Shown here: positions 1,165 to 63,645 of the stretch, one piece after another
Numbering within the stretch: position 1 is the stretch's first letter
Layout: each line of letters opens with the position of its first letter
Source: Anaerolineaceae bacterium
GTDB lineage: Bacteria; Chloroflexota; Anaerolineae; Anaerolineales; Anaerolineaceae
Length of the DNA stretch: 64,000 nt
Assembly (NCBI GenBank): GCA_030653365.1
Contig: JAURZL010000014.1
Span: 124,001-188,000 of the forward strand
Reading direction: 5' to 3'
Position numbers and translations under genes: made by a program
Notes under the pieces: generated by a model
What the model saw: only the letters and a program-made list of their open reading frames with translations
Database searches by the model: none
What the model was told of the DNA's origin: nothing

Positions 1165-1244
1165 GGAAGATAATTAGCTGATTGTCCGTCTGGCAAACAT
1201 GGAGAAAAGTGACAACATTGTACCGGGCCTTTCTGATGATTAAA

Positions 1245-1277
1245 TAAAAACAGGTGGGGTAAGCCACCTGTTTTTTA
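1245..1277. terminator. Bidirectional intrinsic terminator
   Basis: The stem CAGGTGG/CCACCTG (1251-1257 with 1264-1270) is extended by A/T pairs and has a T-run on both strands. It lies between convergent genes, so it can end the VCBS gene on + and the PadR operon on -. Confidence 0.85.
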
Positions 1278-1694: not shown

Positions 1695-1696
1695 TT

Positions 1697-1801
1697 TTAT
1701 TTTTCCTTTATTACTATCTTTCTCACGACTTGATCACCCTTATGGGTCTCGCTTTTGCTGGTAATATGGTCGTTCATATTACCTAATTCGATGGTAAACA
1801 T
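1697..1801 (-). CDS. Small 34-residue protein in PadR operon
   Basis: An ATG at 1801 is preceded by an almost ideal ribosome-binding site (AAGGAGGGACAGCG) and opens 34 codons ending in TAA two bases before the TTG of the next gene. The product starts MFTIELGNMNDHI and ends VVRKIVIKEK; it is hydrophilic with no membrane segment. Position, ribosome-binding site and tight spacing support translation, perhaps coupled to the Arg/His-rich gene downstream. No family is recognised. Confidence 0.5.
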   Translation of the reverse strand: MFTIELGNMNDHITSKSETHKGDQVVRKIVIKEK

Positions 1802-1825
1802 CGCTGTCCCTCCTTATTCAATTAA

Positions 1826-2197
1826 TTAATTCTTGAGCATCTCCTGGATGCTATCCTGTGCCTTGACCAATTCTTCCCGCCATGTCAACAAAGCTGCTTC
1901 ACCGATGCGGGTAAGGTTATAAAGTCTACGCGGTGGACCCTGGTTGTTATCAGTATCCCATTCGGAATGGATCCATTCAAGTTCTTCCATTTGACGCAGG
2001 GTTCGATAGACGACACTTGGGTGCAGCGACTCGAGCCCCAGAGATTCCAGGTCAGCTAGCAGCGAATATCCATGCCGTGGGGATTGGGAGATCAGGGTCA
2101 GCAGTGCGGGTTCGACGAGTGCAACCTTTAAAGGCGTTCGTCGTTTTTCACGTCTGTGACCATTTTCCATTCCCCATCCTCTTTTGTGTCTTGGCAT
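1826..2197 (-). CDS. PadR-family transcriptional regulator
   Basis: The 123-residue protein has the PadR winged-helix fold: a helix-turn-helix with the family signature HGYSLLADLE, a segment reading HPSVVYRTLRQMEE (recognition helix), a wing with GPPRRLYNLT, and a C-terminal dimerisation helix. The ATG at 2197 is preferred over one at 2233 because it has a GAGG ribosome-binding site six bases upstream and because a good promoter would start transcription near 2217. PadR proteins are usually repressors responding to small molecules. Here it heads an operon with two small unknown genes, and probably autoregulates. The effector is unknown. Confidence 0.9.
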   Translation of the reverse strand: MPRHKRGWGMENGHRREKRRTPLKVALVEPALLTLISQSPRHGYSLLADLESLGLESLHPSVVYRTLRQMEELEWIHSEWDTDNNQGPPRRLYNLTRIGEAALLTWREELVKAQDSIQEMLKN

Positions 2198-2223
2198 TTT
2201 TAACCTCTTTCTCAAGTCTTCAT

Positions 2224-2252
2224 ATTTTATCATTCTATTCTATATTTGTCAA
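2224..2252 (-). promoter_or_regulatory. Sigma-70-type promoter of the PadR operon
   Basis: On the minus strand TTGACA (2252-2247) is followed after exactly 17 bases by TAAAAT (2229-2224). Transcription would start near 2217, just ahead of the ribosome-binding site of the start codon at 2197. Confidence 0.7.
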
Positions 2253-2369
2253 TAGTGTTTATAGGACTAGTATAATATAGAATATTCTGGTTAATCGCTT
2301 ATTAGCAATTTCTTCTCCCTTTAGGCTTTAGGCTTTTCCCTTTCCCCTATTCTCCCCTATACTTAACCC

Positions 2370-2915
2370 ATGAACACTTACATCGCCCTTTTTCGCGGTA
2401 TCAACGTTGGTGGAAAAAACACTCTTAAAATGAAGGACTTGGTCAGTCTAATGGAAGCACTCGGTGCCAAGAATGTCCAGACCTACATCCAAAGCGGGAA
2501 CGCCATATTTCAGTCATTGAAAGAGCACACACAGCTCTCCGAACAGATCAGCCTGGCCATCCAACAACACTATGGATTTGCCCCGAATGTCCTGGTACTG
2601 GATCAGGCAGAATTCGAGAAAGCTATGGCTGAGAACCCCTTTCCGGAAGGCATGTCCAACCCTAGGTCCCTGCACCTTGGATTTCTGGCTCGTCCCCCTG
2701 GACAACCCAAACTGGAAGAGTTGGATCGTCTCAAAAGTGAGAGTGAACAATATCATCTGACAGACAGAGTCTTTTATCTGTATGCTCCAGAGGGGATTGG
2801 AAGGTCAAAATTGGCAGCAAATAGTGAGAGATTATTAGGCGTTCCCATGACAGATCGTAATTGGAACACGGTTATGAAAATTTTACAGCTGATTGAATCG
2901 AAGGAGAAACAATGA
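2370..2915 (+). CDS. DUF1697 domain protein
   Basis: The 181-residue product matches DUF1697 along its length: the N-terminal signature YIALFRGINVGGKN, then LKMKDLVSLMEALG and YIQSGNAIF, and a C-terminal segment with GRSKLA and RNWNTVMKILQL. The family is common in soil and anaerobic bacteria, about 180 residues long, and has no established function. It lacks a signal peptide and is probably cytoplasmic. The stop codon overlaps the start of the nitroreductase gene (ATGA), so the two are very likely translated together. Confidence 0.85.
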   Translation: MNTYIALFRGINVGGKNTLKMKDLVSLMEALGAKNVQTYIQSGNAIFQSLKEHTQLSEQISLAIQQHYGFAPNVLVLDQAEFEKAMAENPFPEGMSNPRSLHLGFLARPPGQPKLEELDRLKSESEQYHLTDRVFYLYAPEGIGRSKLAANSERLLGVPMTDRNWNTVMKILQLIESKEKQ

Positions 2916-3766
2916 ACTTTTACGAACTCATCATGAAACGGCGCTCAGTACGAAATTTCAATGATCAACCCATCCCGGTGGAGCTTGTTGAAAAGCTACT
3001 GGATGCCGCCAACAACGCCCCTTCCGGTGGAAATATTCAACCACTTTCCATCATCCTCGTACAGGAAAGTGAAAACAAAGAAAAACTGGCGGAGATTGTA
3101 GGCAACCAACCCTGGGTCAAGAATGCTCCGCTTTCCATGGTCTTCTGCCTGGATTACAACTGCGTCAAACGCTGGGCGGTCATGAGTGGTACCGAATTCA
3201 AAGGGGATCAGGCGTTCTCGCATTTCCTGATTTCTTATGCGGATGTAATCTGCGCTGCCCAATCGGTGGTGCTGCTGGCTGAAAGCCTGGGGTTGGGATC
3301 CGTATATGTCGGAACAATCCAATCCTGCATGGACCAGGCGCGGCAACTGTTAGACATCCCGGAGTATGTGCTGCCAATCATGGTGCTTTCGCTTGGGTAT
3401 CCCAAATCCATTCCCCATACCATCCCCAAGCTGAAACGTGAGGTGATTGTCCATCACGAACAATACCAGGTCCGCAGTGATGAAGAGATCCTGCAGGCAT
3501 TTGATCAAAAATATGGTGATTTCAGCATCAAAGCTGAAGAATATCTGGAGAAAGCCTTCATCGAAACCATCGAAGCAGACAAACAGGGGGCAGATGGATG
3601 GACCGAATGGGCAGTCTCAGCGATGACCAAACTGGAGATTCGCAATAACGCTGAATTCCTCTTCAAGCTCCGCTACCCGAATGATGTGATGGTGAAGATG
3701 AACAAACACCTGATAGAGTCATTCAAAAACGCCGGCTTTGATTTCTTCTTGGAGCAGAATTCCTGA
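2912..3766 (+). CDS. Nitroreductase-family flavoprotein
   Basis: This cytoplasmic protein (284 residues) belongs to the FMN-dependent nitroreductase family, which reduces nitro compounds, quinones or other acceptors with NAD(P)H. The N-terminal FMN-phosphate signature RRSVRNF (residues 10-16) and NNAPSGGNIQP (34-44) are present, as is the segment AESLGLGSVYVG near residue 125. The catalytic domain ends near residue 180; the remaining ~100 residues form an extra C-terminal extension, so the protein is longer than the usual ~200. The start overlaps the DUF1697 stop. The substrate cannot be told from sequence. Confidence 0.85.
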   Translation: MNFYELIMKRRSVRNFNDQPIPVELVEKLLDAANNAPSGGNIQPLSIILVQESENKEKLAEIVGNQPWVKNAPLSMVFCLDYNCVKRWAVMSGTEFKGDQAFSHFLISYADVICAAQSVVLLAESLGLGSVYVGTIQSCMDQARQLLDIPEYVLPIMVLSLGYPKSIPHTIPKLKREVIVHHEQYQVRSDEEILQAFDQKYGDFSIKAEEYLEKAFIETIEADKQGADGWTEWAVSAMTKLEIRNNAEFLFKLRYPNDVMVKMNKHLIESFKNAGFDFFLEQNS

Positions 3767-4039
3767 TCTAAAATAATTTTTTTTCACATTTAATAAAAAC
3801 TCCATACCTCCCAAATTCACCTCAGGATGGATTTTCATTTTTCGCATTTAGCCTTTAGGCTTTCGCCTTTCTTTTTGCCTTTTGGCTTTTGGCTTTAAAC
3901 TATCCCACCTTACATATTTGTTAATTCAATAATTAGGCGTTTTATCGTATCGATTCATAAGCTTAGGCGTCTTAAAAGGTAAATCGATCCCAATCAATCT
4001 CAATCCGTAATACATAAGACAAAAAGAAAGAGAGATCCA

Positions 4040-4879
4040 ATGAAAATTTTGACCATTGCAACAATTCTAGTAATGTTGTTGGGAGGTGGAATATCTACCG
4101 TCGCAGCCCAGACTAGCTTACCAGGCGATGCGCTATATCCGGTAAAAGGACTGGTGGAAGATATCGAATTAGGGCTGGCTACCAATCCTGATATAAAGTT
4201 TGAAATCGCCTCTCAGCTGGCTTACAAACGTTTTACGGAAATCCAGGCGTTAATTGAAAAAGGCGAGCCGGTTACCGAACCTTATCTCTTTGAATGGCAA
4301 ATGCAACTATGCACAGCTTTACAATACGCTCTTCAATCCGGTGATCCTTCAGGCAACTTAATGATGGTTCAGCAAATGCTGCAACAACAAACGATCCAGG
4401 CAAACAAAGGTGAACAGACCGGGGAACCCATCATGAATCTCTTTAAAAACACCCTGCAAAATCAGGTGAAGCTGGTGGGTGCAGGCATCGAAGAACCAGA
4501 CAAGTTAGCCAGTGAGCTGAAATATATGGTGAACTATCAAAAGCAAAATGGGAAAGATGCACTGGAAGAAACCTGGGAAACCCTCTATATGGCGGAAGCA
4601 CAAATTGACAACCAGGATACCAGCGGTGAAATTCTGGATGACTATCAGTGGATGTACATGAAGGGCAAGATTGATGATGAGGAAGATGATGGCAGCCAGG
4701 ACGGCGATAACAATCATCAAAATGGCGGCAGCCAGGGCGACAATGACACTGGTGATGGCAATGATAGCAGCGGTGGCGATAATGGTGGCAGTGGCGGAAA
4801 CGGCGGTGGTAATGGTGGCGGCAACGGCGGAGGGGGCGGTAGCGGCGGTGGAGGCGGAGGTGGTGGAGGTGGTGGATAA
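4040..4879 (+). CDS. Exported DUF5667-type protein with glycine-rich tail
   Basis: A signal peptide covers residues 1-23 with cleavage near VAAQ. It is followed by the motif LPGDALYPVK, which opens DUF5667 domains found in exported and anti-sigma-like actinobacterial and Chloroflexota proteins. Residues ~30-200 are helical. The last ~65 residues change abruptly: an Asp/Glu stretch, then a low-complexity tail of Gly, Asn, Ser and Asp ending in eleven Gly in a row. An ATG with AAAGAGAGA upstream supports the start. It is a monocistronic unit between terminators. A surface or envelope location is likely; function is unknown. Confidence 0.75.
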   Translation: MKILTIATILVMLLGGGISTVAAQTSLPGDALYPVKGLVEDIELGLATNPDIKFEIASQLAYKRFTEIQALIEKGEPVTEPYLFEWQMQLCTALQYALQSGDPSGNLMMVQQMLQQQTIQANKGEQTGEPIMNLFKNTLQNQVKLVGAGIEEPDKLASELKYMVNYQKQNGKDALEETWETLYMAEAQIDNQDTSGEILDDYQWMYMKGKIDDEEDDGSQDGDNNHQNGGSQGDNDTGDGNDSSGGDNGGSGGNGGGNGGGNGGGGGSGGGGGGGGGGG

Positions 4880-4952
4880 CATCCATAAGATCCCACTTCT
4901 TTCGGAGTTTCCGAACCACAATCCACTTGATTGAACAGCAATGACAAGCACA

Positions 4953-4990
4953 AAAGGAGACAAATTTTCATAATTTTGTCTCCTTTATTT
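4953..4990. terminator. Intrinsic terminator after DUF5667-type gene
   Basis: Perfect 12-bp stem AAAGGAGACAAA/TTTGTCTCCTTT (4953-4964 with 4975-4986), ending in a T-rich run. It lies 74 bases after the stop codon. Confidence 0.85.
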
Positions 4991-5074
4991 TCATAATGAT
5001 CTTTTTCATAATCCAATATCCGTGCTGGTTCCTGTATAATAAATCTTGTCGTCCTCGGAAAAAAGGATATCAGC

Positions 5075-5530
5075 ATGCAAACTTACAAACACAAACAGAA
5101 CGGTTCGTTCATTTTATTTGCTCTGAGCCTGGGGGTATTGATGACCGTTTGGATTCTATTTAAAGTTTTTCCCAGACCTGGCACCATCATCACGGCGATC
5201 ATTATGGTGGTTCTCTTAATCTGCATTGTGTTATTCTGGTCACTCACAGTTGAATTAACAACAGATCACCTCTCCGTAAAACTTGGTTTGGGTATCATTC
5301 ACAAAGAAATCCGTTACGAAGATATCCGTGAGGCGCGCGTTGTCAAAAATCCTTTGTATTACGGCTGGGGAATCCGATGGATCCCGCGCGGCTACATGTA
5401 CAACGTCTCTGGTTTTGGTGCAGTAGAGTTGGAATTCACTGATAACCAGCGATTCCGGATCGGTAGTGATGAGCCAGAAAAATTGTTATTTGCGATTCAA
5501 AATAAGCTACATCAGAAAGTGGAAAATTGA
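5075..5530 (+). CDS. Small membrane protein with PH-like domain
   Basis: The 151-residue product starts with two hydrophobic helices (about residues 12-31 and 37-58), followed by a cytoplasmic domain of about 90 residues rich in beta strands. The segments VELTTDHLSVKLG, YEDIREARVVKNP and FRIGSDEPEKL match the bacterial PH-like (YdbS/YvdB-type) pattern. Proteins of this shape are usually of unknown function. Its 3' end overlaps the convergent radical SAM gene by 19 bases. Confidence 0.7.
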   Translation: MQTYKHKQNGSFILFALSLGVLMTVWILFKVFPRPGTIITAIIMVVLLICIVLFWSLTVELTTDHLSVKLGLGIIHKEIRYEDIREARVVKNPLYYGWGIRWIPRGYMYNVSGFGAVELEFTDNQRFRIGSDEPEKLLFAIQNKLHQKVEN

Positions 5531-6270
5531 CGGGCGAGAAAACATTCAATCCCCCACCGCTTAAAGGCTAGCCGCAGCGTTTGTTCTACCAGATCAAAAA
5601 ACCCATCGGTATTCTTGTCTTCCATCTTATACTTGCGATAGACCCAATACGCATGATGGTAATTCATGCGATCCAGGATCACATAATCGACCTTGCCTGC
5701 CAGCAAATCCGGTAGGTCTTCACTGCCAGGCAGTAGCGGTGCCAGCATCGCAAACGTTCGAATCCCAGCTTTGTGCAATTCATCCAGCGTGTGTACTCGA
5801 TCCGCTATTGTTGGTGCTGATGGTTCAAACTTGTATCGGACGCTGTCATCTGATGTGGTGATGCTCAACCCCACCTCGAAATTCTCACCCTTTTGCAGAA
5901 TATCTAGATCGCGTAGAACCAGGGAAGAACGCGTCTGAACAGTCACCGGCCAATGATGCTCAGCCAGTATCTGCAGGCAGCCACGGGTAAGCTGATACTT
6001 TATCTCCAATGGCTGGTATGGATCACACACCCCGCTGATCCAGACTCTGCCCGGTTTATTCTTCACGATTTCTTTCTCTAACAACATTACCGCATTTACC
6101 TTCACATCCACAAATTGACCCCATGGCTCGCGATGCCCCGTGAAACGTTTCATGAATACGGCATAGCAATAGGTGCATTTGTGCTGGCATCCGACATAAG
6201 GATTGATCACATATGGAAAAATTTTTGATCCAGAGAGAATCGTTTTTGACTGGATTTCTTTTATATACAT
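5512..6270 (-). CDS. Radical SAM protein, SplB-like
   Basis: The 252-residue protein carries the [4Fe-4S] cluster motif CX3CX2C at Cys28, Cys32 and Cys35 (CQHKCTYC), preceded by NPYVGC. It also has ISGVCDPYQPLE and a segment RDLDILQ, which are typical of the SPL/Rv2578c-like radical SAM group (COG1533) related to spore photoproduct lyase. Members cleave S-adenosylmethionine to a 5'-deoxyadenosyl radical; the substrate of this subgroup is mostly unknown, and DNA repair is only a suggestion by homology. It is a single gene converging on the PH-like gene. Confidence 0.85.
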   Translation of the reverse strand: MYIKEIQSKTILSGSKIFPYVINPYVGCQHKCTYCYAVFMKRFTGHREPWGQFVDVKVNAVMLLEKEIVKNKPGRVWISGVCDPYQPLEIKYQLTRGCLQILAEHHWPVTVQTRSSLVLRDLDILQKGENFEVGLSITTSDDSVRYKFEPSAPTIADRVHTLDELHKAGIRTFAMLAPLLPGSEDLPDLLAGKVDYVILDRMNYHHAYWVYRKYKMEDKNTDGFFDLVEQTLRLAFKRWGIECFLARQFSTF

Positions 6271-6910
6271 GGGTTAATTATAAGTCCATCGTTGATTGGA
6301 ATAAATCATAGGCGGGTTGTTTCCCAATCCCAATCACCCAAATCTTACAGAAGTGGCTCAATAGAAGGTTTTACCGTTGCACAGCCCAAACAACTCTGCT
6401 ATACTTTATATGGGATATTAAGAAATTTTCCGGTTCACCTTGATCGACCTGGGATGAAACACCCAGGCCTGAAATTCTGGTCAAAGTCATGAAGAAGTAG
6501 GACGTTTCCACCGCCCCACTTGTACCGATCCCGTTTTTCAAGACTTTCAAATTTTGTTCCGACCGGCATTAGGTATCGATCTAACTCTTCGCAAACAAGT
6601 AATTGATTTATGGTTTTGGTACCACTTGTAGCGATAGTTTCTTCCCTCCCTTTATTAACCGTTTGGAACTTTTCGTTTTATATAAACAATTGGTTTCCAT
6701 CGGACATGCATTCACAATCTGGGCAATTTATCCTAAAAGTGAGTGCAAATTTCTGAATAGGAAAAAATAATATGGATTTACACCAGCCAATGAATTCAAC
6801 ATCATTTGTCTGGTCATAAAAAGTAAACCACCCTTCGCTATGGTCATTCGGCAGGTCCTTGCGACCTCTATCAATCAAAGTACATTCAAAAAAATTTTAT
6901 AGGAGAAAAA
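6271..6910. other. 640-bp gap without a convincing gene
   Basis: Divergent region between the radical SAM gene and hflK. Only short open frames of about 66 codons without good starts or family resemblance are present on either strand. It must contain the promoters of both flanking genes, but I cannot place them. A GGAGAAAA ribosome-binding site precedes hflK. Confidence 0.5.
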
Positions 6911-7954
6911 ATGATAAGACAAAATAAACCGATCGAACCTGGAGGCAATCCTTTCCTTAATCCGGATCAACTCTCCAGGTTATTACGGTCACGGCGCCTG
7001 TTTTGGATCCTTGTGATCGCAGTGGTGATTCTATGGCTGCTCTCTGGAATTTACATGGTTGGTCCTGGTGAGCGTGGTATTGTGCTCACATTTGGCAAAT
7101 TAACCAGTCAAAGCGAATCCGGATTACACTACCGCCTGCCAGCACCGATCCAATCCAACTATGTGGTGGATGTTGCGCGGGTACGTACAGCCGAGATTGG
7201 TTACCGCACTGAAGGGAATGAGCAAAGAGTGATGCTTGAAGAGGCACAAATGCTTACCGGTGACGAGAATATGGTCGTCGTTCAACTCTTCATCCAATAT
7301 TTGGTGTCTGACCCGGTGCTATTTCTATTTCATGTACGCGATGCTGAAACAGTGCTCAAATCCTCTGCAGAGATTGCCTTGCGATCCACTGTGGGTCAAA
7401 ACACGATTGACTTCACGATGACAGAAGGACGTGTACAGGCACAGGATCAGGTAAAAACCCAATTGCAGGCTTTGCTTGACCAGTACCAGACAGGTTTACT
7501 CGTCACGGAAGCCCGACTATTGGCCGTCGACCCGCCTGCTGAAGTGCGTGATGCGTTTCATGATGTGGTTCGTGCTTTTGAAGACCGCGAACGCCTGGTG
7601 AAGGAATCTGAGGGGTATGCTGAGCAGGTTGTCCCAGCAGCACGTGGTGAAGCAGCCCAGATGGTGCTGGAGGCAGAAGCCTATCGCGAACAACGTTTGA
7701 TCCGAGCCGAGGGCGATGCAGCCCGATTCCTGGCTTTGTTGGCTGAATATCTAAAAGCTCCGGAGGTGATGCGTGAACGGTTGTATCTCGAAAGCATCGA
7801 ACGTGTCCTTTCAGATGCGACTCTCTTCGTTTTGGAATCCGGACAAAGTGGCGTTTTACCGTTCTTACCCCTGACCGACATGAATACCACAGTCGCACCA
7901 GAGATCGAGCCTGTCCAACCCACCGAACAAATCGAACCAACCCCGGTCCCCTAA
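6911..7954 (+). CDS. hflK: HflK-like SPFH/prohibitin protein
   Basis: A 347-residue membrane-anchored SPFH protein. A cytoplasmic leader of ~30 residues with NPFLNPDQ is followed by one transmembrane helix (about 31-51), then the band-7 domain starting VGPGERGIVLTFGK and a long helix rich in Ala, Glu and Arg (about 230-280). It ends in a Pro/Thr/Glu tail. HflK and HflC form a large cage that surrounds FtsH protease and modulates its access to membrane substrates. The paired hflC follows after 34 bases, the standard arrangement; no ftsH lies nearby. Confidence 0.9.
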   Translation: MIRQNKPIEPGGNPFLNPDQLSRLLRSRRLFWILVIAVVILWLLSGIYMVGPGERGIVLTFGKLTSQSESGLHYRLPAPIQSNYVVDVARVRTAEIGYRTEGNEQRVMLEEAQMLTGDENMVVVQLFIQYLVSDPVLFLFHVRDAETVLKSSAEIALRSTVGQNTIDFTMTEGRVQAQDQVKTQLQALLDQYQTGLLVTEARLLAVDPPAEVRDAFHDVVRAFEDRERLVKESEGYAEQVVPAARGEAAQMVLEAEAYREQRLIRAEGDAARFLALLAEYLKAPEVMRERLYLESIERVLSDATLFVLESGQSGVLPFLPLTDMNTTVAPEIEPVQPTEQIEPTPVP

Positions 7955-8997: not shown

Positions 8998-11900
8998 TTA
9001 ATTATTCTCCATATTTCCCATGGTCACAATCACTTGATGTTCACGTTGATCATCGACCAGGGGGATGGATCCATCCGAGAGGGGCTGCCCATCCAAAAGT
9101 ATTTGCCGGACATTCCGAGATATATGATCAGGGTTATCCACCTGGATGTGATAAACAGCCTGTCCAAATTGATAACGAATCGAAAATCCATCCCAGGCAG
9201 GTGGAATAACCGGGTTTATTTGCAAGGTTTTTCCAATCTTTCGAAAACCAAGCATTGCCTCCAAACCAAGACGGTACATCCAGGCAGCCGATCCTGTATA
9301 CCAGGTCCATCCACCACGCCGAACATAGGGTGAACTGCTGTAGATATCAGCACAGATCACATAGGGTTCCACCCGATACTCAGCTGCCTTTTGTGGGGTA
9401 TCGGACTGAAAGATAGGGTTTAGCAAATCAAAGAGCTCGCCAGCCTGTTTGCCATCCCCCAGCAACGTGAAAGCCCAGGCAGTCCAGATAGCAGCATGGG
9501 TGTATTGACCACCATTTTCTCGGGTGCCGGGCAAGTAGCCTTTGATGTACCCGGGATCGTGAGGTGTCTCATCGAAAGGAGGCGTAAAGAGTAACAAAAG
9601 ACGGTCTTCAGGACACACCAGTCGGTTTAGCACTGACTGCATCGCCCTACGGCTGCGTTGTGGTTCGCCTGAACCGCTGATCACAGCCCAAGATTGTGCT
9701 ATCGCATCTATCTGGCATTCTGGCTCAGTGATCGATCCGAGCGCTGCTCCGTTATCATAGTATGCTCGCCGGTACCATTCCCCATCCCAGGAGGATCGCT
9801 CAATAGCGGCAGAATATTCCTCCGCACGGGATCTGTATCTCTTTGCTGTCTCAACATCACCAATTCCCTCACAAACTGATGCAAAACGATTGAGAACATC
9901 GCAAAGGAACCATGCAAGCCAGACACTCTCGCCAACGCCTTTTTCCCCAACCCGGTTCATACCGTCATTCCAGTCGCCGCTACCAATTAATGGCAAGCCG
10001 TGCACACCAGTGGTTGATCCTTTTTCAATAGCTAGTTTACAGTGTTCCAACAGTGATTGAGATTGTTGGGATTGTGGAAATTCACCATAGCGTTCGTGTT
10101 CGCCTGGAAGAAGCAGGGGGCCAACTCTGAAAGGAATTTTCTCCTCCAGCAAGGCTGTATCGCCTGTCGCGTCAATATACAATGCGGTGACATAAGGCAA
10201 CCAGAGCAGGTCATCAGAAAAACGGGTTCGAACGCCACGACCTGAAGGTGGATGCCACCAATGCAGTACATCCCCTTCTGCAAACTGACGCTGGGCAGCA
10301 TTGAGAATCTGGCTGCGGGTTATAGTCGGGTCAATTGGAAGCAGTGCCAATACATCCTGAAGCTGATCGCGGAAACCAAAGGCTCCACTGGATTGGTAAA
10401 AACCTGTACGTCCCCAAATGCGGCAGGAAAGCGTTTGATAAAGCATCCAGCGGTTTAGGATCAAGTCAGTAGCTGGTTCGGGTGTATGAACCTGGATGGT
10501 GCCGAGTAGATGATCCCAGAACACACGGGTATGTTCGAATGCTGCAGCAACAGCGTCGGGGTTATGGTATTTTTCTGCAAGTGCCAGGGAATGATTTCGA
10601 TCCTTTCCCTGCCCAAGCACAAAGTAAACTTCTTCGGCTGCACCGGGCAGTAAATCGAGATGCATTTGCAGGACAGCGCAAGGATCTTCGCCTGGGGTAA
10701 TACGGGTTTCCAATCCCAGGCGTTTCAGAGCAACAGGGAAGGCGAGTGTTCCACCGCGTCCAAGGAACTCAGTGCGATCTGCTGTCAGGCCATGAATAGA
10801 TTTGCTTGCGATCAGGAATCCTACTCTTTCCTTAAATTCAACACTGTAAGGGTTGGTGGCAAGTAGACACTCTTGAGCAGAATCGTACTCAGGGATAATA
10901 TAGTTCATGCTTGCAGCATGCGTTGTTCCTAAAACCCATTCCACATACTGTGTGGTCGTGATTCGGCGCGTATGGTCCAAAGTATTCTCAACCTTCAAAT
11001 GCATAATTTTCACCGGGTCTTCCGGGCTGGCAAACAAGGTGAGAACCTGGCGAAGACCATGCGAGTTATGTTCGAAGCGTGTGTAACCTGCAGCATGGGT
11101 GACACGGTATGGCTGATCTGCACCGCCAGGGAGTGGTGTAGGCGTCCAAACCTCGCCAGTTTCTTCATCACGCAGATATAGCGCCTCACCCGTTGGGTCT
11201 CGAACGGGGTCGTTGGACCAGGGAGTGAGGCGGTTTTCGCCACTGTTTATTGCCCAGGTGCACTGGCTGCCAGATTCACTCACCATAAAGCCAAACAGTG
11301 GATAACCAATTACGTTCACCCACGGGGCAGGGGTAGTCATGCCCGGTTGAATATCTATGACATATTCACGTCCATCAGCACTAAAACCTCCAAATCCATT
11401 AAAGAACTGAAGTTTTCCGTTTTCTTCGGATTCAAAGGGTTGTAGGACAGGTGAAGCATAGGAGGGGATTTTTTTCTGACGGGTTGGTGATAAATTTGGA
11501 AGATGATGTACCGGCATTGAATAGCCTGGTAACTGATCGCCCAGCGATCCATTCGCTCCAGAGAGGACAACCCTTGCAGCAGTCTGCAGCAAGATGCGTT
11601 CCTCGCCACTCATCTGGTCATTATAAAGAATGAAAATTCCACCACGCTGATTCAGCCATTCTTCACTGTTCATTTTGCTGACCATACGATAGAGTAACCC
11701 ATTCAACTCAGCACCATAATCAGTTGGTTGGCGATTTATGATGACGACATCAATAATAAATCGACGGCTTCGAAGGAATTTATGCACTTGTAAAGCTTCA
11801 CGCACCAGATTGACCTGCAGGGCATGATCCACTTCAACCAACAGGATGGGATAATCCCCAGAGATACCAAAGCGCCACAATCCGGGCTGACCTAACCGAT

Positions 11901-56277: not shown

Positions 56278-56387
56278 AATTCACCGTCTCATCAGTATAC
56301 AATAAACTTCCATCGGTGCAATTCCCGCGCCAATGTTTAGTTATGACGACAACCCGCTTCATTGAGTTCCCGCCTTGCTATCCGTAC

Positions 56388-56489
56388 GGGTAAAGCATTT
56401 GATTGTAAAATTCTCGAGAAATTCGAAATAAAGGAATACTTAAAATTGTTGTACTATTTAGAATTTCACGATTATCAAATGCTTTACCC
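56388..56489. repeat. REPIN-like palindrome A
   Basis: A 102-bp unit that begins GGGTAAAGCATTTGAT and ends ATCAAATGCTTTACCC, with a ~70-bp AT-rich partly palindromic core. It adjoins the RAYT stop codon. Confidence 0.75.
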
Positions 56490-57095
56490 CTACCATCTCC
56501 GTGGATTTTCCCGGATGTACCCAACGATCCTGTCATAATCCTCTTCATCTCGGATGACATGCTCGTAGTAGTTCCGGTGCCAGATAGTAGATCCAGGTGT
56601 TTCCAGTAGTCTGTTGATCTTGCGGGAGGTGATCGACTTGAAGTTCTGGACAATCGCCGGTATCGAGCCGGGCTGACTACCAGCCCTGGCAGCACGTATG
56701 GGTAAAGCATTTGATTGCAAAATTTTCGAGAAATTTAGATTAATCGAGGAACTTGAAATTATTGTACTATTTTGAATTTCTCGATGGTCAAATGCTTTAC
56801 CCTTACCATTCCCTCCACCCTCCCCCTCGGTAATCACCAGAATCCCATGCAGATGGTTAGGCATGATCACGAACTCATCCAGTACGACATTCGCGAAGTG
56901 GTCAGGGATTTTCAGCCACTGCTCCTGGGCGATCTCCCCCACAGGTGAAAGATGCACAACCCCATCAACAACTCTCCCAAACAAGTGTTCCATTTTGTGG
57001 GCATTAATGGTCAAGAAGTAAGCACCTGGTTGAGTGTAATCGTACCCTGACAGGCGGAGAGAGTGGCGGTTATGAATGGCGGGATTGTATGACAT
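56490..57095 (-). CDS. REP-associated tyrosine transposase (RAYT, Y1_Tnp)
   Basis: The 201-residue protein has the HUH nuclease motif in VIMPNHLHGIL near 79-84, the N-terminal RLSGYDYTQPGAYFLTINAHKM, and the catalytic Tyr region WHRNYYEHVIRDEEDY near 170-180. A 103-bp REPIN-like palindrome (B) is inserted in frame between these halves, adding about 45 residues (from GKGKAFDH on) that no other RAYT has. The C-terminus ends early at ENPRRW with palindrome A. RAYTs recognise REP hairpins. Activity may be impaired by the insert. Confidence 0.85.
   Translation of the reverse strand: MSYNPAIHNRHSLRLSGYDYTQPGAYFLTINAHKMEHLFGRVVDGVVHLSPVGEIAQEQWLKIPDHFANVVLDEFVIMPNHLHGILVITEGEGGGNGKGKAFDHREIQNSTIISSSSINLNFSKILQSNALPIRAARAGSQPGSIPAIVQNFKSITSRKINRLLETPGSTIWHRNYYEHVIRDEEDYDRIVGYIRENPRRW
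56700..56802. repeat. REPIN-like palindrome B, inside the RAYT gene
   Basis: Starts GGGTAAAGCATTTGAT and ends TCAAATGCTTTACCC. It is similar to palindrome A in its core (AATTTTCGAGAAATT-like). It keeps the reading frame of the transposase open. Confidence 0.8.
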
Positions 57096-57185
57096 GCGTC
57101 GGGTGGAAAATGGACAAGACTTTCATTAGCAGGAAATTCGGATTTAAGTAATTATGGTCAAAAGCACTGCTTTTGTAAACCGTTT

Positions 57186-57975
57186 GGGTAAAGCATTTGA
57201 TCCAGTCTCACTTCCAGCTGTATGGGTAAAGCATTTGATGTCTTGCATAATCAAAAAAATTCCAAAACGCAAAATTATTCTACTGATCAAAAACAATCTA
57301 CAAATTACGGATCAAATGCTTTACCCTTACCCAGACCTACCTCTCCCTCCGTGGTCACCAGCATGACATTCTCTTTGCTCAAGTACTTCGTGCTACAAGC
57401 CAGTCTGGTCTCCCGTCCCTGACTCCCTACCAGCCCTTCCAGCCGTAAGAGTATAGCATTTGATCCTGTTTTATCGGAAAAACTCCAAAACACAAAAATT
57501 ATTCCACTGATCAATACCAATCTACAAATTACGGATCAAATGCTTTACCCTTACCTGTGCGTACCTCCCCCTCCGTCATCACCAGCACGACGTTATCTTT
57601 GCTCGAGCACTTTCTGCTTCAAGACAGGCCAGTCTCTCGTCTCCTGTCCCCGGACTCCCTGCCAGCTCTGCCCGTGCGCATGGGTAAAGCATTTGATCCT
57701 GCTTTATCGGAAAAATTCCAAAACGTAAAATTATTCTACTGATCAAAATCAATCTACAAATTACGGAACAAATGCTTTACCCTTACCCGGACTCACCTCC
57801 CCCTCCGTGATCACCAGTACGACATTCTCTTCGCTCGGGTACTTCTTGCTTCAAGACGGGCTAGTCTCTCGTCTCCCGTCCCCGGACTCCCTGCCAGACC
57901 CCAGGTAAAGCATCCGTGCCTCGCAGGGGTATCAACTTTCAGCTTTCAACTTTAACATATCCCAATGCTTTACCC
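57186..57975. repeat. Tandem array of REPIN-like units with RAYT fragments
   Basis: After a single half-site (57186-57203) follow four units at 57224, 57449, 57682 and 57901, i.e. periods of about 225, 233 and 219 bp. Each holds a REPIN-like palindrome and a spacer whose word CCTCCCCCTCCGTGATCACC, read on the minus strand, encodes VITEGE, part of the RAYT. The last unit is degenerate. Confidence 0.75.
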
Positions 57976-58610
57976 TTACCCGGACTCACCTCCCCCTCCG
58001 TGATCACCAGGATGACGTTCTCTTAGCTCCTATTGCTTCGCCCCTACAACATGACACCTAACTATTTTGGGTACAGTTTTGACAATTATCTTTATTTACG
58101 CCTGTGGTTTTGAATGTGGATTGTGAATCCACCATACGCAGATCTAGGGGAAGCAGACAGAGGAAGGGAAAGTAGGCAGTCATAAGTTGAAAGTAATAAC
58201 CGAAGAATAGGAAGAGAAGGATTAATTGACTGGTGCTTCAGCGACGCACACTTCACTAAGGTTGGATCACAATTCGCTGAAACGTCCAGAACATGCTTGA
58301 CTACAAGCCATCCCTTAAAAATAATATGAAAACAAATGTCTAGTTTTGAAAAATTTCCGCAACACGTTGTTTTTTTCAAATAATTCTGCTTTATAATTAT
58401 AAAATCGCTAATTATTTGAAATCATGATTATCCCTTATCCTCACGCCTGGATTTGAAAAGCACTATATAAATTCAATTTTTTTTATTTATTAGCAAAAGT
58501 CTAATTAAGCGACTCAACCAAAATCTTAATTAAAAATTTTCTTGCCAATACAAAAAAAATTATGCGATATCTATTACTTTATCGGAGGATTTAATAAACT
58601 AGAGATTATT
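57976..58610. other. 635-bp gap, end of array and AT-rich flank
   Basis: The first ~50 bases are a further decayed spacer copy. From about 58330 on the sequence is very AT-rich, marking the border of the neighbouring cluster. No gene was supported; an open frame at 58092-58379 (minus) lacks family resemblance. Confidence 0.45.
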
Positions 58611-59261
58611 ATGAATAATAGTAATAACCAGGAAGGTAATTATATAATCCTCGAAGGAAATAGCGGAGTAGGAAAAGATACTCAAGCTTATTTGTTACAA
58701 AAATGGTTAACAGATAACGAAATAAACGCAATTATTGTAAATGAACCAACCAGATTTTATGCTTTGTGTATGAAATATTTAAAGAGAATTCACATTGATT
58801 TAGATGAAAAAAATAAATTATTAAAAATAGTTCTAATTTTCATTGATAGGTTTTTTTTAATAAATTTTAAAGTAAAACCGTTAATCAGAAAAGGTATTAC
58901 TATAATTTCTGTTCGGAGTTTTATTAGCATGATGGTATATCAATTTGACACTTTTACGTCACGTGCAAGGGTCTACAAATTCCACTTCTTTCTTCCCAAA
59001 CCAATTTTAATAATAATATATGATGTAGATCCATTAATAAGCTTAAAAAGAGTAGAAAAGAGGGGAACCAGCAATAAATATCATGACAAATTAGAATCTT
59101 TGAGAAAACATAGACCATTATATATTGAGATAAGTAAGGATTTTTGTAATAAATTTGCTGTTGAAGTGATTGATGCTAGTGAACCTTTAGAAGCAGTTCA
59201 TAGAAAAACAATAAATATTTTACAACCTAGGTTAAAAATTGATGATGTTTTGAATTTTTAA
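58611..59261 (+). CDS. Thymidylate-kinase-like P-loop protein
   Basis: The 216-residue protein has a Walker A loop GNSGVGKDTQ and the order of motifs of dTMP kinases: GNYIILEG at the start, then VNEPTRF, RSFISMMVYQ (in place of the DRYxxSxxAYQ motif), and a lid-like RVEKRGTSNKYHDKLESLRKHRPLY. It is strongly diverged and AT-rich, unlike housekeeping Tmk. The ATG at 58611 is the best start, though the GGAGG site lies 18 bases upstream. It converges on the HD gene with a 4-bp overlap, so it is a member of the same cluster. Confidence 0.7.
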   Translation: MNNSNNQEGNYIILEGNSGVGKDTQAYLLQKWLTDNEINAIIVNEPTRFYALCMKYLKRIHIDLDEKNKLLKIVLIFIDRFFLINFKVKPLIRKGITIISVRSFISMMVYQFDTFTSRARVYKFHFFLPKPILIIIYDVDPLISLKRVEKRGTSNKYHDKLESLRKHRPLYIEISKDFCNKFAVEVIDASEPLEAVHRKTINILQPRLKIDDVLNF

Positions 59262-59854
59262 TTCGATAGGAAACTGTAAAATTCTTGCCAAGAGTTGAAT
59301 AAAGTCCTAAATTTAGGAAAATTATTACATAAAGGAATAATATAATCAACAGTTTGTTTATAATATGATTTTTGTCGATCATAAGATGGATCTATAGATA
59401 ATCTTTGAACATTGCTGTATCTATCTGCTAATTTAATTATTAAAACATTCGATGGAGCATTTTTTAGAGATTTTAAGTAATCAATTTTTAAGGTTTGTTT
59501 ATTCTGAGATTGAGTAACTTTAGGTTTCGTTAAAGTTTTAACAATATTAAATACTTCCTTTCCAAACAAATCAATTATTTCATTTTCTATTACAGAAGTA
59601 TCTTCTAAAATATCGTGTAATATACTAGCTGTCAAGATTGGTTTATCTTTTATACCCATTTCTAAAATTAAAATTTCTAAAACTTGAAGTAAATGTTTTA
59701 TGATGGGCTCTCCGTTTACTCTTTTCTGGTCACCATGATATTTTTCTGCAAATTGTATGGTATATTCAAGATGTTTTACTAAATCCATCTCGAAAATTTC
59801 ACATAAATCTTGCTTAGCATCATCCCAAGTTTCCCATTTAATAAAAAAGATCAT
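59258..59854 (-). CDS. HD-domain hydrolase (SpoT/Mesh1-like)
   Basis: The 198-residue protein has the HD pattern of (p)ppGpp hydrolases and their relatives: AEKYHGDQKRVNGEPIIKHLLQVLEI, ILHDILEDTSV (HD pair) and IIKLADRYSNVQRLS. It lacks the synthetase and regulatory domains of SpoT. Such proteins remove phosphates from nucleotides. An AAAGG site precedes the ATG. It follows the Nudix-membrane gene after 12 bases and so is the third gene of a minus-strand operon. Confidence 0.75.
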   Translation of the reverse strand: MIFFIKWETWDDAKQDLCEIFEMDLVKHLEYTIQFAEKYHGDQKRVNGEPIIKHLLQVLEILILEMGIKDKPILTASILHDILEDTSVIENEIIDLFGKEVFNIVKTLTKPKVTQSQNKQTLKIDYLKSLKNAPSNVLIIKLADRYSNVQRLSIDPSYDRQKSYYKQTVDYIIPLCNNFPKFRTLFNSWQEFYSFLSN

Positions 59855-59866
59855 AAATCAACCTTT

Positions 59867-61144
59867 CTATTTATTTTTGTTGTGTTTGTTTATTTGTTTG
59901 ATTAAAAAATATCCTATTGTCAAAATAGAGACTAGGAGGCTTATAATAATATCGGTTCTTTCTAATTTATCCCAGTGAAAAGGAAATATTAAGAATAACA
60001 ATACGATAAGAATAATAATTATGGAAATGATCCACCAAATCTTAAGGATTAATCGAAGAAATTTTTTTCCAATGAAAAAAATTTCTTTTACTCCATTATT
60101 GAAATAATATTGCATTTTTTTAACGTGATAATAAGTATCGTCATAATTTAGAAGATTAATATTTCCTACTGTAATGGGTATTGATGAAAGTTTATATGTA
60201 TTATCAATTTTCTCAAGCAATTCGTGGCGTGTCATAATTAGATTATCATTGTTTTCTGATCTTCGTTTCATGATTTCTTCTTTTGTAAACCATGCATATT
60301 TAAGATCTGAACGAAATTTTAACTCGCCTTTTATTTCTGTTACATAAAATAAATTGAATTCAAATCTTGTGAATAATCCTAATTTAATTTCTGGTTCAGA
60401 AAGGATAAAATCATTCACTCCTGATGACTTAAGTATAAAGGATCCAGATCGTGTCTCTAGGTCTTCATCCAATGCAATTTTCGCTGTTGTTTCATCATTC
60501 CAACCTTCTTGTTGATTTGACCCGATTAATGCGTATTTTCCCCACTCTGGCTTATAAACATGTAAATAAACTTCATCATATTCATTTCGTAATTTTTTAT
60601 TTTTATACCTTTTCCCTTTAATTAAAACAGAGATAACTCTAGATTTCAAATTTGGTTGCAATTGCCAATCATAAAATTGTTGAGAGAAAATATTTGATAA
60701 TAGTAAATGAGGATCAATTTTTTCATCCGAAATTTGGTCTTCAATGGTGCTTTGAAAAAATCTTATCGATGAATTTTGTTTAATAGGTGATATTTTACCG
60801 TTGGAATTTTTTAAATGGAAACTAATATTTTGTAATAAAGAACTGGAAGAATATGATGTTGCTGATATTTTTGTTAAACCAAGTTCTTCTCTGATTGATA
60901 TTATCCCTATCGAATTTAAGGTAATTAATAATGCTGATACGATATTTTCTAAATTAGAAAGATTAGGAAATAATGAATTAATCCGATTGACTATTTCATC
61001 AAAAGAAATCTCATGAATTATTTGTTGTTCTCTAATTTCTAATTGTCCTCTTATTTTTTTTTCAATTTTTCTTAATGACACCGTTGGTATCAGATCCAAA
61101 ATTGAATATATTATTACTTCATATTCTTCAATCTTTTTCTTCAT
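59867..61144 (-). CDS. Membrane protein with degenerate Nudix-like domain
   Basis: The 425-residue product has an N-terminal helical region (possibly winged helix, residues 1-90), a Nudix-like domain at about 180-300 and two C-terminal membrane helices (about 365-385 and 400-420). The Nudix box is eroded: the phrase TTAKIALDEDLE takes the place of the usual REUXEE. The tail KYAWFTKEEI is typical for Nudix domains. Catalysis is therefore doubtful; ligand binding is the alternative. Starts at ATG 61144, five bases after AGGGG, overlapping the kinase gene. Confidence 0.55.
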   Translation of the reverse strand: MKKKIEEYEVIIYSILDLIPTVSLRKIEKKIRGQLEIREQQIIHEISFDEIVNRINSLFPNLSNLENIVSALLITLNSIGIISIREELGLTKISATSYSSSSLLQNISFHLKNSNGKISPIKQNSSIRFFQSTIEDQISDEKIDPHLLLSNIFSQQFYDWQLQPNLKSRVISVLIKGKRYKNKKLRNEYDEVYLHVYKPEWGKYALIGSNQQEGWNDETTAKIALDEDLETRSGSFILKSSGVNDFILSEPEIKLGLFTRFEFNLFYVTEIKGELKFRSDLKYAWFTKEEIMKRRSENNDNLIMTRHELLEKIDNTYKLSSIPITVGNINLLNYDDTYYHVKKMQYYFNNGVKEIFFIGKKFLRLILKIWWIISIIIILIVLLFLIFPFHWDKLERTDIIISLLVSILTIGYFLIKQINKHNKNK

Positions 61145-61787
61145 CATTTCCCCTTAGTGATTCAATTTTATTTACAATTTTTTTTGCTATTTCATACTGG
61201 CTTAGGTTAGTAGTTTTTATTCTTTCAATTAAAGGGAATTTTATTCCATTATATTTATCATAAATAATTGAATAGGATTTTTGAAGATTATCCAAAGTGA
61301 TTAAGTTTGTTATTAAACCAGGACCTGCGCCTATTTGAAGAGCAATATCTCTTTTAATTGCAATTTCAGGTTCAATCTCAAAAAGAAACACAATATCGAC
61401 ATATTTCCCCCAATTAGCAAAGAGATTCATGTAATAAAAAATATCTTCTTTCTTTTTGTTTTGTGTAAAAGGGTGTATTTCATTTTGTGAGTCTAAAATA
61501 CCTTCTATTTCTAATAATAAAAGGAAACCTAAGGCGTCAAACAAACCCCTATCTTGAAAGATCATTGTTGACTTAATAAATTGATTTTTTCCTTCTATAA
61601 TATTGTTCAATGCATGATTAGCAAGCCAAAATGCCGTACTAACTCGGGATGTATTAGGAAATGGACAAAAACGCGCACCTTCCGTGTAAAGTTTTACATT
61701 ATTTCCTAGTCGAATGTAATAATCCTTAATAGTATCTAATGTTGTGGATTTACCGCTTCTTGGTGAGCCAGCAAATTCAATAATCAT
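61128..61787 (-). CDS. P-loop nucleoside/deoxynucleoside kinase-like protein
   Basis: The 219-residue protein starts with MIIEFAGSPRSGKSTTLD (Walker A GSPRSGKST) and has the DRG motif in FQDRGLFDALGFLLLL and an RDIALQIG-like lid, like small AAA/deoxynucleoside kinase-type proteins. A GGAG site lies five bases before the ATG. Its gene overlaps that of the Nudix-like membrane protein by 17 bases. The sequence is highly AT-rich. Phosphoryl transfer to a nucleotide or small molecule is inferred. Confidence 0.7.
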   Translation of the reverse strand: MIIEFAGSPRSGKSTTLDTIKDYYIRLGNNVKLYTEGARFCPFPNTSRVSTAFWLANHALNNIIEGKNQFIKSTMIFQDRGLFDALGFLLLLEIEGILDSQNEIHPFTQNKKKEDIFYYMNLFANWGKYVDIVFLFEIEPEIAIKRDIALQIGAGPGLITNLITLDNLQKSYSIIYDKYNGIKFPLIERIKTTNLSQYEIAKKIVNKIESLRGNDEEKD

Positions 61788-62121
61788 ATTTACTCCAAAT
61801 TATACGCTTGTGAAATTAATTATAAATTAGATCTAATAATGTACTGAATAAAGTTTATTTTAACTAAATAAATTATAGTGCGTTTTTGTAAAATAATTGG
61901 TTCAACAACCAAATGGTTATATTTTAATATACGTCGCATATAGGAAAGGATTTTCATCTGTACAATTCTTGAAATTACACCACTATTAGCGACGAATACA
62001 GCATATTTTCAGTGAACTTTATAAAAAAAATTTCAAATTTTAATTTTTATTGTAGTTTCATATCCCATTTATGCTACAATAATTCCATCACTCCTCACTC
62101 CAACCTCAAGGGGACACTCCA
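61788..62121. other. AT-rich divergent gap before hsdM
   Basis: 334 bp between the kinase-like gene (minus) and hsdM (plus). No gene or sure promoter pair was found. The ribosome-binding site AAGGGG stands nine bases before the hsdM start. Confidence 0.4.
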
Positions 62122-63645
62122 ATGCCAAACCATTCTCCCTCCCATCCGATCTCACAGGACGAGATTAACGCTATCCTTTGGAAAGCTTGCGATACCTTCC
62201 GTGGTACCGTTGACCCCTCCGAATACAAAAATTACATCCTGGTGATGCTCTTCCTCAAATACATCTCGGATGTCTGGCAGGATCATTATGATCAGGTCAA
62301 GCAGCAGTTCGGCGAGGACGAAGAGCGCATTATGCGCCGTATGGAACGCGAGCGCTTTGTTCTGCCCAAAGGAGCAGATTACTATTCGCTTTACGAACAG
62401 CGCAACGCCGACAACCTCGGTGAGCTGATCGATATCGCCCTGGCGAAGATCGAAGAAGCCAACATCACCAAGTTGCAGGGTGTCTTCCGCAATATCAGCT
62501 TCAACTCCGAATCCGCGCTCGGGCAGACCAAACAGCGCAATACCCGCCTGAAAAACTTACTAAGCGATTTCTCCGATCCTCGTCTGAATATGCGACCAAG
62601 CCGTATCAATGGACTGGATGTGATTGGCAACGCTTATGAATACCTGATCGGCAAATTTGCTGCTACCGCTGGCAAAAAAGCCGGAGAATTCTACACTCCA
62701 CCCCAAGTCTCACGCCTGCTGGCGAAACTGCTTGCCCCCCAGCCCGGCGAACGGATTTACGACCCTGCCTGTGGTTCTGGTTCGCTCTTGATCAAATGTG
62801 CCGAGGAGGTTAGCGATAAGAATTACGCCATATATGGGCAGGAGAACAACGGTGCCACCTGGGCATTGGCGATGATGAACATGTTCCTGCATGATATCAA
62901 CCAGCCCAAAATTGAGTGGGGCGACACCATCGACAACCCCATGCACGTGGAAGATAACCAGTTGATGCGTTTCAACGTGGTGACCGCCAATCCACCCTTC
63001 TCGTTGGATAAATGGGGTGCAGAGAACGCTGCCAACGACCCTTATAAACGCTTCTGGCGTGGGGTACCTCCCAAAAGCGTTGGGGACTACGCCTTCATTT
63101 CCCACATGATTGAAAGCACCTACCTCGAACCGTCACAGTATGGACGTGTCGGGGTCGTGGTACCACATGGTGTTCTCTTCCGGGGGGATGCGGAGGGAAA
63201 AATCCGTCAGAAGTTGATCGAAGAGAACCTGCTGGATGCTGTCATTGGCTTGCCCGCCAACCTCTTCTTCGGTACCGGCATCCCTGCAGCTATTTTGGTT
63301 TTTAAGCGCCAGCGAGGGGATCGAAAAGTGCTCTTTATCGACGCCAGCCGCGATTACCTACCCGGCACCAACCAGAACTACCTACGGCTTGAGGATCTCG
63401 AGAAGATTCTGTTTACCTATCAAGCACGCCAGACTGTCGATAAGTACGCCTATATGGCGGAGTTTGAAGAACTAGTCGAGAATGATTTCAATTTGAATAT
63501 TCCTAGATATGTGGATACTTTTGAACCTGAGCCCTTGGTGGATATGATCGAAATAAGTTTTGAGATAATAAAAATCAAGAGCGAATTACTTAATTTAGAA
63601 CAAAAAATGGAAAAATATTTTCTTGAGTTATTCAAAAATGAGTAA
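62122..63645 (+). CDS. hsdM: Type I restriction-modification methyltransferase subunit
   Basis: The 507-residue protein has the HsdM N-terminal domain (DEINAILWKACDTFRG...KNYILVMLFLKYISD), the SAM-binding motif DPACGSGSLL and the N6-adenine motif NPPF near 290, plus AGEFYTPPQVSRLLAKLL. It methylates adenine in the sites chosen by HsdS. The last ~55 codons (from about 63475) are clearly more AT-rich than the rest. Its stop overlaps the hsdS start by eight bases. hsdR is not in the window. Confidence 0.95.
   Translation: MPNHSPSHPISQDEINAILWKACDTFRGTVDPSEYKNYILVMLFLKYISDVWQDHYDQVKQQFGEDEERIMRRMERERFVLPKGADYYSLYEQRNADNLGELIDIALAKIEEANITKLQGVFRNISFNSESALGQTKQRNTRLKNLLSDFSDPRLNMRPSRINGLDVIGNAYEYLIGKFAATAGKKAGEFYTPPQVSRLLAKLLAPQPGERIYDPACGSGSLLIKCAEEVSDKNYAIYGQENNGATWALAMMNMFLHDINQPKIEWGDTIDNPMHVEDNQLMRFNVVTANPPFSLDKWGAENAANDPYKRFWRGVPPKSVGDYAFISHMIESTYLEPSQYGRVGVVVPHGVLFRGDAEGKIRQKLIEENLLDAVIGLPANLFFGTGIPAAILVFKRQRGDRKVLFIDASRDYLPGTNQNYLRLEDLEKILFTYQARQTVDKYAYMAEFEELVENDFNLNIPRYVDTFEPEPLVDMIEISFEIIKIKSELLNLEQKMEKYFLELFKNE

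Follow-up and report, generated by a model that had tools for sequence, protein, structure and literature searches.

Recurrent Nudix, HD and membrane partners of a P-loop kinase point to a possible nucleotide-signalling module in an Anaerolineaceae genome

A kinase-centred cassette

Within a 64,000-nucleotide stretch of contig JAURZL010000014.1 from an Anaerolineaceae bacterium (GCA_030653365.1; the whole stretch is referred to below as the window), three minus-strand genes encode, in this order, a P-loop kinase, a membrane protein that we call p3 and an HD hydrolase. Relatives of the kinase are recurrently linked to Nudix, HD and membrane partners, and most of the versions that carry a membrane partner have phage or defence genes as neighbours. 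This suggests that the cassette is a nucleotide-signalling module of which little is known and which may serve phage defence. Our leading, and still tentative, description is that of a three-gene nucleotide-signalling cassette, probably acquired horizontally, with a kinase, a hydrolase and a membrane reader.

The original prediction placed four AT-rich genes at 58611..61787 beside hsdMS. All four open reading frames (ORFs) are present, with a GC content of 0.27 for a convergent thymidylate-kinase-like (TMPK-like) gene, 0.26 for the HD gene, 0.27 for p3 and 0.30 for the kinase gene, against 0.46 at 1-56 kb of the window, 0.47 at 56-58 kb and 0.50 in hsdM. The kinase and p3 genes overlap by 20 bp, and 12 bp lie between the p3 stop and the HD start. 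An operon with overlapping starts and stops, as had been proposed for the cluster, therefore holds for these three genes but not for the TMPK-like gene, which is on the opposite strand and whose stop shares 4 bp with that of the HD gene. The longest ATG-initiated ORF has 426 aa, whereas none exceeded 145 aa when 58500-61900 was simulated 500 times with a first-order Markov model. All four ORFs are real genes by length and overlap, and two of the four also by family match.

The kinase family and its Nudix and HD partners

The window kinase reaches no Pfam or NCBIfam cut-off and is only weakly similar to AAA_28 (E 0.073); no nucleotidyltransferase domain was found. Since p3 gave no relatives in the collections searched, the kinase was used to trace related loci (L-numbers denote the fetched loci of kinase relatives, the window neighbourhood and viral contigs). 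Two kinase peptide patterns run against genome_contigs yielded 32 loci titled Chloroflexota, Planctomycetota, Alpha- and Deltaproteobacteria, Actinomycetota, Clostridia, Bacilli and Armatimonadetes, among others. Two of these, L009 and L013, seem to duplicate L003 and L004, which came from the Chloroflexota sample and are not among the 32. A family hidden Markov model (HMM) built without the window kinase matched it at 115 bits (1e-34), and residues E4, F5, G7, P9, S11, G12, K13, E36, P42, D79, R80, D84 and R146 were invariant in 17 aligned rows.

The kinase was found in three of 400 sampled Chloroflexota genomes, host included, and in the same three in a sample of 301. Strong matches were present in six of 296 genomes of the class to which the L036 genome belongs, itself included, and in the phylum of the L019 genome the centre genome alone was positive (1/249). 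Seven of the 13 matches in the L036-class search were weak (3.7e-10 to 9.1e-9), read as housekeeping Tmk or other P-loop proteins and were not counted. No plasmid match was obtained for the window kinase, and four partial plasmid matches of the L018 kinase-Nudix fusion were left uncounted. A three-row kinase alignment found no match in viral_contigs and a sixteen-row alignment found three loci; searches with the kinase and membrane protein of one of the viral contigs, L039, returned only the same two viral contigs.

In 30 of the 32 loci a Nudix domain stands behind the kinase on the same strand, with at most 258 bp between the profile matches. In 17 of the 30 this partner shares one open frame with the kinase as a fusion, and in 13 it is separate. 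The exceptions are L012, in which no Nudix domain was found, and L036, in which an HD domain is fused to the kinase. It is the position of this Nudix partner that p3 occupies in the window.

Mesh1-type HD domains form a second kind of partner. They are fused to the nucleotide kinase in L036 (7290-8654, 454 aa) and L058 (1456-2826, 456 aa), HD and kinase are adjacent in L061/L085, and the IMG/VR viral contig L039 (copy, L040) has three overlapping ORFs for, in this order, an HD protein, a one-helix protein and a kinase. A profile of the five HD proteins, run at E 1e-4 on all fetched loci minus those of the host genome, detected the HD-kinase loci and their copies, one further site about 6 kb along L085 and nothing else; being built from its own targets, this profile may miss other HD types, and the locus flanks scanned differed in length.

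A kinase tree was drawn from 29 of the 42 listed kinase rows and one outgroup (rows absent: L006, L008, L009, L013, L014, L015, L028, L030, L031, L032, L035, L041, L060). It paired L036 with L058 (99/97) inside a group holding L059 and L062, both linked to an NrtR-type regulator, and placed L039 beside kinases with a membrane partner (80/85). The window, L061 and L033 formed long branches, with the window loosely joined to a Chloroflexota-Planctomycetota-Actinomycetota group (86/58), so that its place in the tree is unsure. Because the HD-linked kinases stand in separate places of the tree as drawn, HD and Nudix look interchangeable, and we read this as repeated exchange of the two partners, in a number that the long branches leave unsure. 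Such exchange would be expected if both enzymes act on a like product.

The label of HD hydrolase given earlier to the third gene product agrees with its match to PF13328 (57.1 bits, cut-off 27.2); a partial match to TIGR00691 (1.1e-25) lies far below that whole-protein cut-off. In HD_4-type domains the metal site is made by an H...HD...ED...D motif, and these residues are kept in the alignment of the protein to Drosophila Mesh1 (3nqw, 9.3e-15; alignments read by eye). By domain and motif, the protein is a putative small alarmone hydrolase (SAH) of RelA/SpoT homologue type. Relatives of it are present in 85 phage records, and the four window proteins contain no alarmone synthetase domain.

Membrane partners and phage or defence surroundings

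One membrane protein family with three to four predicted helices is present in six of the 32 loci (L019, L021, L023, L025, L027 and L034), where its gene either overlaps the kinase-Nudix gene or stops 17 bp short of it. Together with L039 and the window, eight loci thus have a membrane partner, and seven of these eight (six of seven if the window is set aside) lie in phage or defence surroundings as assessed by eye, without matched random loci for comparison; L025 is the exception. Neighbours include QatC in L019 (3.4e-50), AIPR (4.8e-35) and AbiH (1.3e-32) in L027 and, as a weak defence marker, a YhcG nuclease in L021. Prophage genes for head, terminase, tail-fibre and integrase proteins surround L023 and L034, and the IMG/VR contig L041 carries the same cassette as L034. 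L039 has a primase match, with two other proteins giving no PHROG match, and the window has a type I restriction-modification (R-M) locus as its neighbour (by reading). Type I R-M genes were also read directly downstream in L029 and L032, both kinase loci, and L026 has a gene family in common with the Qat neighbourhood of L019. Not counted as membrane partners were an opposite-strand membrane ORF in L031 and, in two Chloroflexota kinase-Nudix pairs, small ORFs that closely follow the Nudix gene and encode hydrophobic stretches (L010:9293-9679 and L014:1340-1600), which are possible partners.

The original prediction of nucleotide enzymes arranged around a membrane protein is sustained, and HD, Nudix and membrane partners do accompany the kinase family repeatedly, in many cases within a phage or defence context. 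The exact window genes were not found together elsewhere; what recurs is kinase with HD, kinase with Nudix and kinase with membrane protein.

The family common to L019 (4610-5386, beside QatC) and L026 (10265-11077, near the kinase-Nudix gene) has no clear Pfam or PADLOC match and is perhaps a Qat component.

Prophage and viral copies also bear on a rather improbable explanation, in which the cassette is cargo of a phage or mobile element that aids that element, by nucleotide supply or by repair of defence-depleted NAD, and is passive in this chromosome. The membrane protein-kinase-Nudix sets of prophages L023 and L034 and of L041, together with the HD-transmembrane (TM)-kinase set of L039/L040, would fit such a role, as would the proteins for NAD synthesis, fused to a P-loop kinase or a Nudix domain, that phages carry (PMC7824862, PMC9503650). 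However, a search of 50,697 phage records matched neither p3 nor the L034 fusion nor the L039 kinase (nor did the L034 fusion match any plasmid record), and no phage genes were read next to the window cassette, whose neighbouring ORFs were read by eye and not scanned by model. Moreover, prophages also bear host-defence cargo, so that a prophage location does not tell which side the cassette serves.

Neighbour ORFs were tallied against PADLOC for 112 of 139 ORFs of 22 non-Chloroflexota loci and for 61 of 65 ORFs of ten Chloroflexota loci. Length, sequence composition and distance had served as filters in drawing up the lists; the former also lacks every ORF of L028 and L035, the six membrane proteins and 11 further ORFs, and the latter lacks four. 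Among the 25 of 83 families listed for the non-Chloroflexota tally, REase_I was matched in two members and MTase_I in one. Chloroflexota neighbours include a Csm4 match and PDC-S02, so they are not free of defence-type hits, and both tallies constitute weak evidence. One neighbour protein in the tally matched ThsB1|ThsB at 4.9e-123.

The membrane protein p3

In a simple hydropathy scan, p3 showed hydrophobic C-terminal helices at residues 370-388 and 398-416. The two-helix part of its initial description as a degenerate Nudix/two-helix membrane protein is therefore upheld, and its identity as a Nudix-type protein is weakly supported. With a small HMM made from eight canonical Nudix domains p3 scored 9.2 bits, a value reached by none of 1000 shuffles, and residues 194-304 fell in Nudix register when compared with a mixed set, with a single-test E of 0.005 and a probability of only 7%. 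The location of p3 directly behind the kinase raises the odds that it is of Nudix nature. The Nudix box has the motif GX5EX7REUXEEXGU. As no intact box was seen in p3 (sequence and alignment read by eye), the protein, if Nudix, more likely binds than cuts, and we regard it as a putative membrane sensor or effector. Its best sequence match in the PDB was at 0.87, and a match to Baculo_FP_2nd was set aside as chance.

Several results weigh against the proposed signalling cassette and its defence role. Apart from the host, no relative of p3 was found in the 400 Chloroflexota genomes, nor was one found in viral_contigs, 72,556 plasmid records, the phage records or, by peptide patterns, genome_contigs; as pattern scans detect nothing beyond close relatives, more distant kin of p3 may exist. 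It matched no Pfam NUDIX, NCBIfam or partner-Nudix HMM, and when its profile was compared with those of the partner Nudix and the NrtR proteins, only short unrelated stretches aligned, outside any Nudix register. When partner and NrtR domains were added to the canonical HMM, the score fell to 3.3 bits, which 15 of 1000 shuffles equalled or exceeded. In PADLOC, the four window proteins had no strong match (best 7.4e-5), four proteins of L003 and L004 had none, and seven proteins of L016, L017, L019, L034 and L036 gave 0.0039 at best. The tally of surroundings is weakened by its reliance on eye judgement without a matched random control and by its inclusion of the window itself. Finally, the kinase-HD pair of L085 ends an NAD-biosynthesis operon, and several Chloroflexota kinase-Nudix pairs were read among metabolic genes. 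Overall, a defence role of the cassette is plausible.

Links to NAD metabolism

These last observations belong to the main rival, a possible one, which holds that the genes serve metabolism or house-cleaning as a module acting on NAD(P), ADP-ribose or related nucleotides, with no part in defence. The kinase would salvage a riboside, the HD protein would be an NADPH- or alarmone-type phosphohydrolase and p3 a membrane-anchored regulator. In L085, the run that ends in HD and an AAA_28-type kinase (105-7911) comprises NAPRTase, Nudix, NAD synthase, a phosphoribosyltransferase domain, an NMN transporter, a NadR-like protein, NrtR and a WYL regulator before this pair. An NrtR-type Nudix regulator adjoins the kinase in L059, in the near-identical L060 and in L062; tested on L059, Pfam assigned PF21906 and PF00293 to this regulator. 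A HAD-like neighbour was recognised in these three loci by reading, with no Pfam match at 1e-5. In L017, a fragment of an ADP-ribosylglycohydrolase (ARG) gene stands behind the kinase-Nudix fusion, and the abstract of PMC9765508 reports an orphan bacterial SAH that hydrolyses NADPH as well as alarmones. Together with the Chloroflexota pairs, these loci would suit a metabolic role. Such a role is less easily reconciled with the patchy occurrence of the kinase in the four genome samples, with the low-GC stretch beside an R-M locus in the window, with the prophage cargo of L023 and L034 and the viral contig L039, or with p3, in which the addition of two TM helices and the worn Nudix box are ill suited to plain catalysis. 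If only the metabolic role holds, the genes would indicate that the salvage of NAD or nucleotides includes a step not yet described.

Taken with the NADPH hydrolysis by SAH and with the partner set of ADP-ribose conflict systems considered below, the NAD-gene neighbours lead us to guess that the ligand of the cassette is NAD- or ADP-ribose-like.

Proposed mechanism and related systems

For the signalling cassette that we favour, the following mechanism may be envisaged. The kinase would phosphorylate a nucleoside or nucleotide, perhaps one derived from NAD or ADP-ribose, and so make or prime a ligand, which the HD hydrolase (elsewhere the Nudix hydrolase) would remove, holding its level low. 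p3 would bind the ligand through its worn Nudix-like domain and, were the ligand level to shift during infection, its two TM helices could damage or depolarise the membrane. We infer the ligand, the direction of signalling, the sensor function of p3, membrane damage, the phage trigger and the defence role from gene content and neighbourhood.

A three-part system with interchangeable hydrolases appears to recur. A wider generalisation, which we consider unlikely as it stands, would assign these loci to one class of immune signalling. There, a dedicated P-loop kinase would synthesise the signal nucleotide, a Nudix or an alarmone-type HD enzyme, each able to replace the other, would switch the signal off, and the effector would be a membrane protein, the window being a case in which the sensor Nudix has merged into the effector. 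If this were true, bacterial immune signal nucleotides would need no cyclase or NADase, as a small kinase would suffice with a hydrolase as brake, and a role would be suggested for some orphan alarmone-type HD hydrolases and for the kinase-Nudix family of several phyla and prophages. A literature search found no published system with these parts, although an earlier description may exist.

Cap16 is the nearest working parallel. As described in excerpts of PMC10419184, this CBASS effector joins a NUDIX domain to TM helices, harms the inner membrane and stays toxic when its NUDIX domain is mutated. p3 would resemble it in joining a Nudix-type domain, itself weakly supported, to two TM helices. 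In contrast to CBASS, no CD-NTase model was among the matches of the four window proteins (wider neighbours were read only as ORFs), the kinase and HD protein would replace the cyclase, and p3, as noted, matches no Pfam NUDIX model.

Kongming is built of KomA, a deaminase, and of KomB and KomC, which are of HAM1 and SIR2 types. It offers a parallel for a kinase-made signal, as a kinase step helps make the dITP signal that sets off its effector; there the kinase is phage-encoded and the effector an NADase (PMC12774641). No Kom-like match was obtained among the four window proteins. The cassette belongs to neither system.

ARG-centred predicted conflict systems have, as named partners in section 3.8 of a 2022 article in Viruses (PMC9503650), Nudix or WYL regulators, an alarmone-type HD phosphatase and HAD phosphatases. 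Relatives of the window kinase likewise have NrtR, WYL and HD neighbours, HAD-like ones by reading only. That section, however, names no P-loop kinase or Nudix-TM protein, and the window cassette differs in having no ARG gene among its four genes, with only the fragment near the relative L017. The HD protein is of the same type as the small alarmone hydrolases Mesh1 and SAH, with the motif residues kept, and unlike in alarmone synthetase-hydrolase toxin-antitoxin pairs its partner is a kinase instead of a synthetase. In NadR and NadM, a P-loop kinase or a Nudix domain is joined to an NAD enzyme (PMC9503650, in excerpt). A related kinase and HD protein are placed in an NAD operon in L085, whereas no nucleotidyltransferase domain was found here and the window kinase has only the weak AAA_28 likeness. 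With regard to the kinase-Nudix loci themselves, the window kinase matches the family profile but p3 behind it does not match the partner Nudix HMMs.

The TMPK-like gene, flanks and other features

The earlier description of the first gene as thymidylate-kinase-like was correct at the level of PF02223 (74.2 bits, cut-off 27); in TIGR00041 its product scored 77 bits, under the equivalog cut-off of 83.25. No counterpart of this gene stands beside the kinase family in any fetched locus, and it is therefore treated as a passenger, which it probably is. TMPK-like matches among the fetched loci were confined to L065 and L069, which are weak kinase hits reading as housekeeping Tmk. The four-gene system originally proposed is thus not borne out, there being neither a TMPK-like relative beside the kinase family in those loci nor a p3 relative in the collections searched. 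The best PADLOC hit of the four proteins was a weak one of the TMPK-like protein (PDC-M51B), set aside as P-loop likeness, and three weak phage matches of this protein were also noted. Elsewhere the host encodes a further Tmk (C8, 159.6 bits) and carries a long RelA/SpoT-type ORF, which argues that the window genes are additions and not household copies.

An unlinked TMPK-like gene and a p3 with no found relatives are what one would expect if unrelated AT-rich genes had collected, with no joint function, at a site that is prone to recombination and is bordered by REP-like repeats and the type I R-M locus. The repeats on the left and further low-GC ORFs in the R-M locus agree with this, the least probable of the explanations; the three same-strand genes overlap or abut, though, and partners of like kinds are met again at other loci.

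Table 1. Features of the cassette and its immediate surroundings (window coordinates).
Feature	Position	Strand	Remarks
TMPK-like gene, 216 aa	58611-59261	+	Convergent with the other three; alternative TTG start open at 58542
HD hydrolase gene, 198 aa	59258-59854	-	RelA/SpoT-Mesh1 type; third of the three-gene operon
p3, 426 aa	59867-61147	-	N-terminal part of no recognised kind; possible degenerate Nudix-like region ~190-305; two C-terminal TM helices
P-loop kinase, 219 aa	61128-61787	-	Opens the operon; kinase HMM match
Possible sigma-70-like promoter of the three-gene operon	61799-61826	-	TTTATA, 16 nt, TATAAT; weak
hsdM-like gene of type I R-M locus	62122-63645	+	Outside the cassette; label by reading; clusters with hsdM-like ORF of L029

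The features are listed in Table 1. Promoter-like sites numbered 38 in the region, compared with 26.7 (sd 4.4) in shuffles, so the promoter match is not specific. No terminator-like site was found, and there was no Rfam match within 56.0-62.5 kb. The left flank holds REP-like repeats and a transposase-like ORF, the right flank hsdM, hsdS and later hsdR (labels by reading). Dense REP-like palindromes (e.g. GGGTAAAGCATTTGATCC and its complement) fill 56375-58029 of the window around this 201-aa transposase-like ORF (56490-57095). Two more TMPK-family matches in the host, at G000:C12:226-229 kb, appear on reading to be ordinary deoxynucleoside kinases. Further low-GC ORFs lie in the adjacent type I R-M locus, L049 (G000:C12:186001-205900), for example 9208-10446 with 28% GC.

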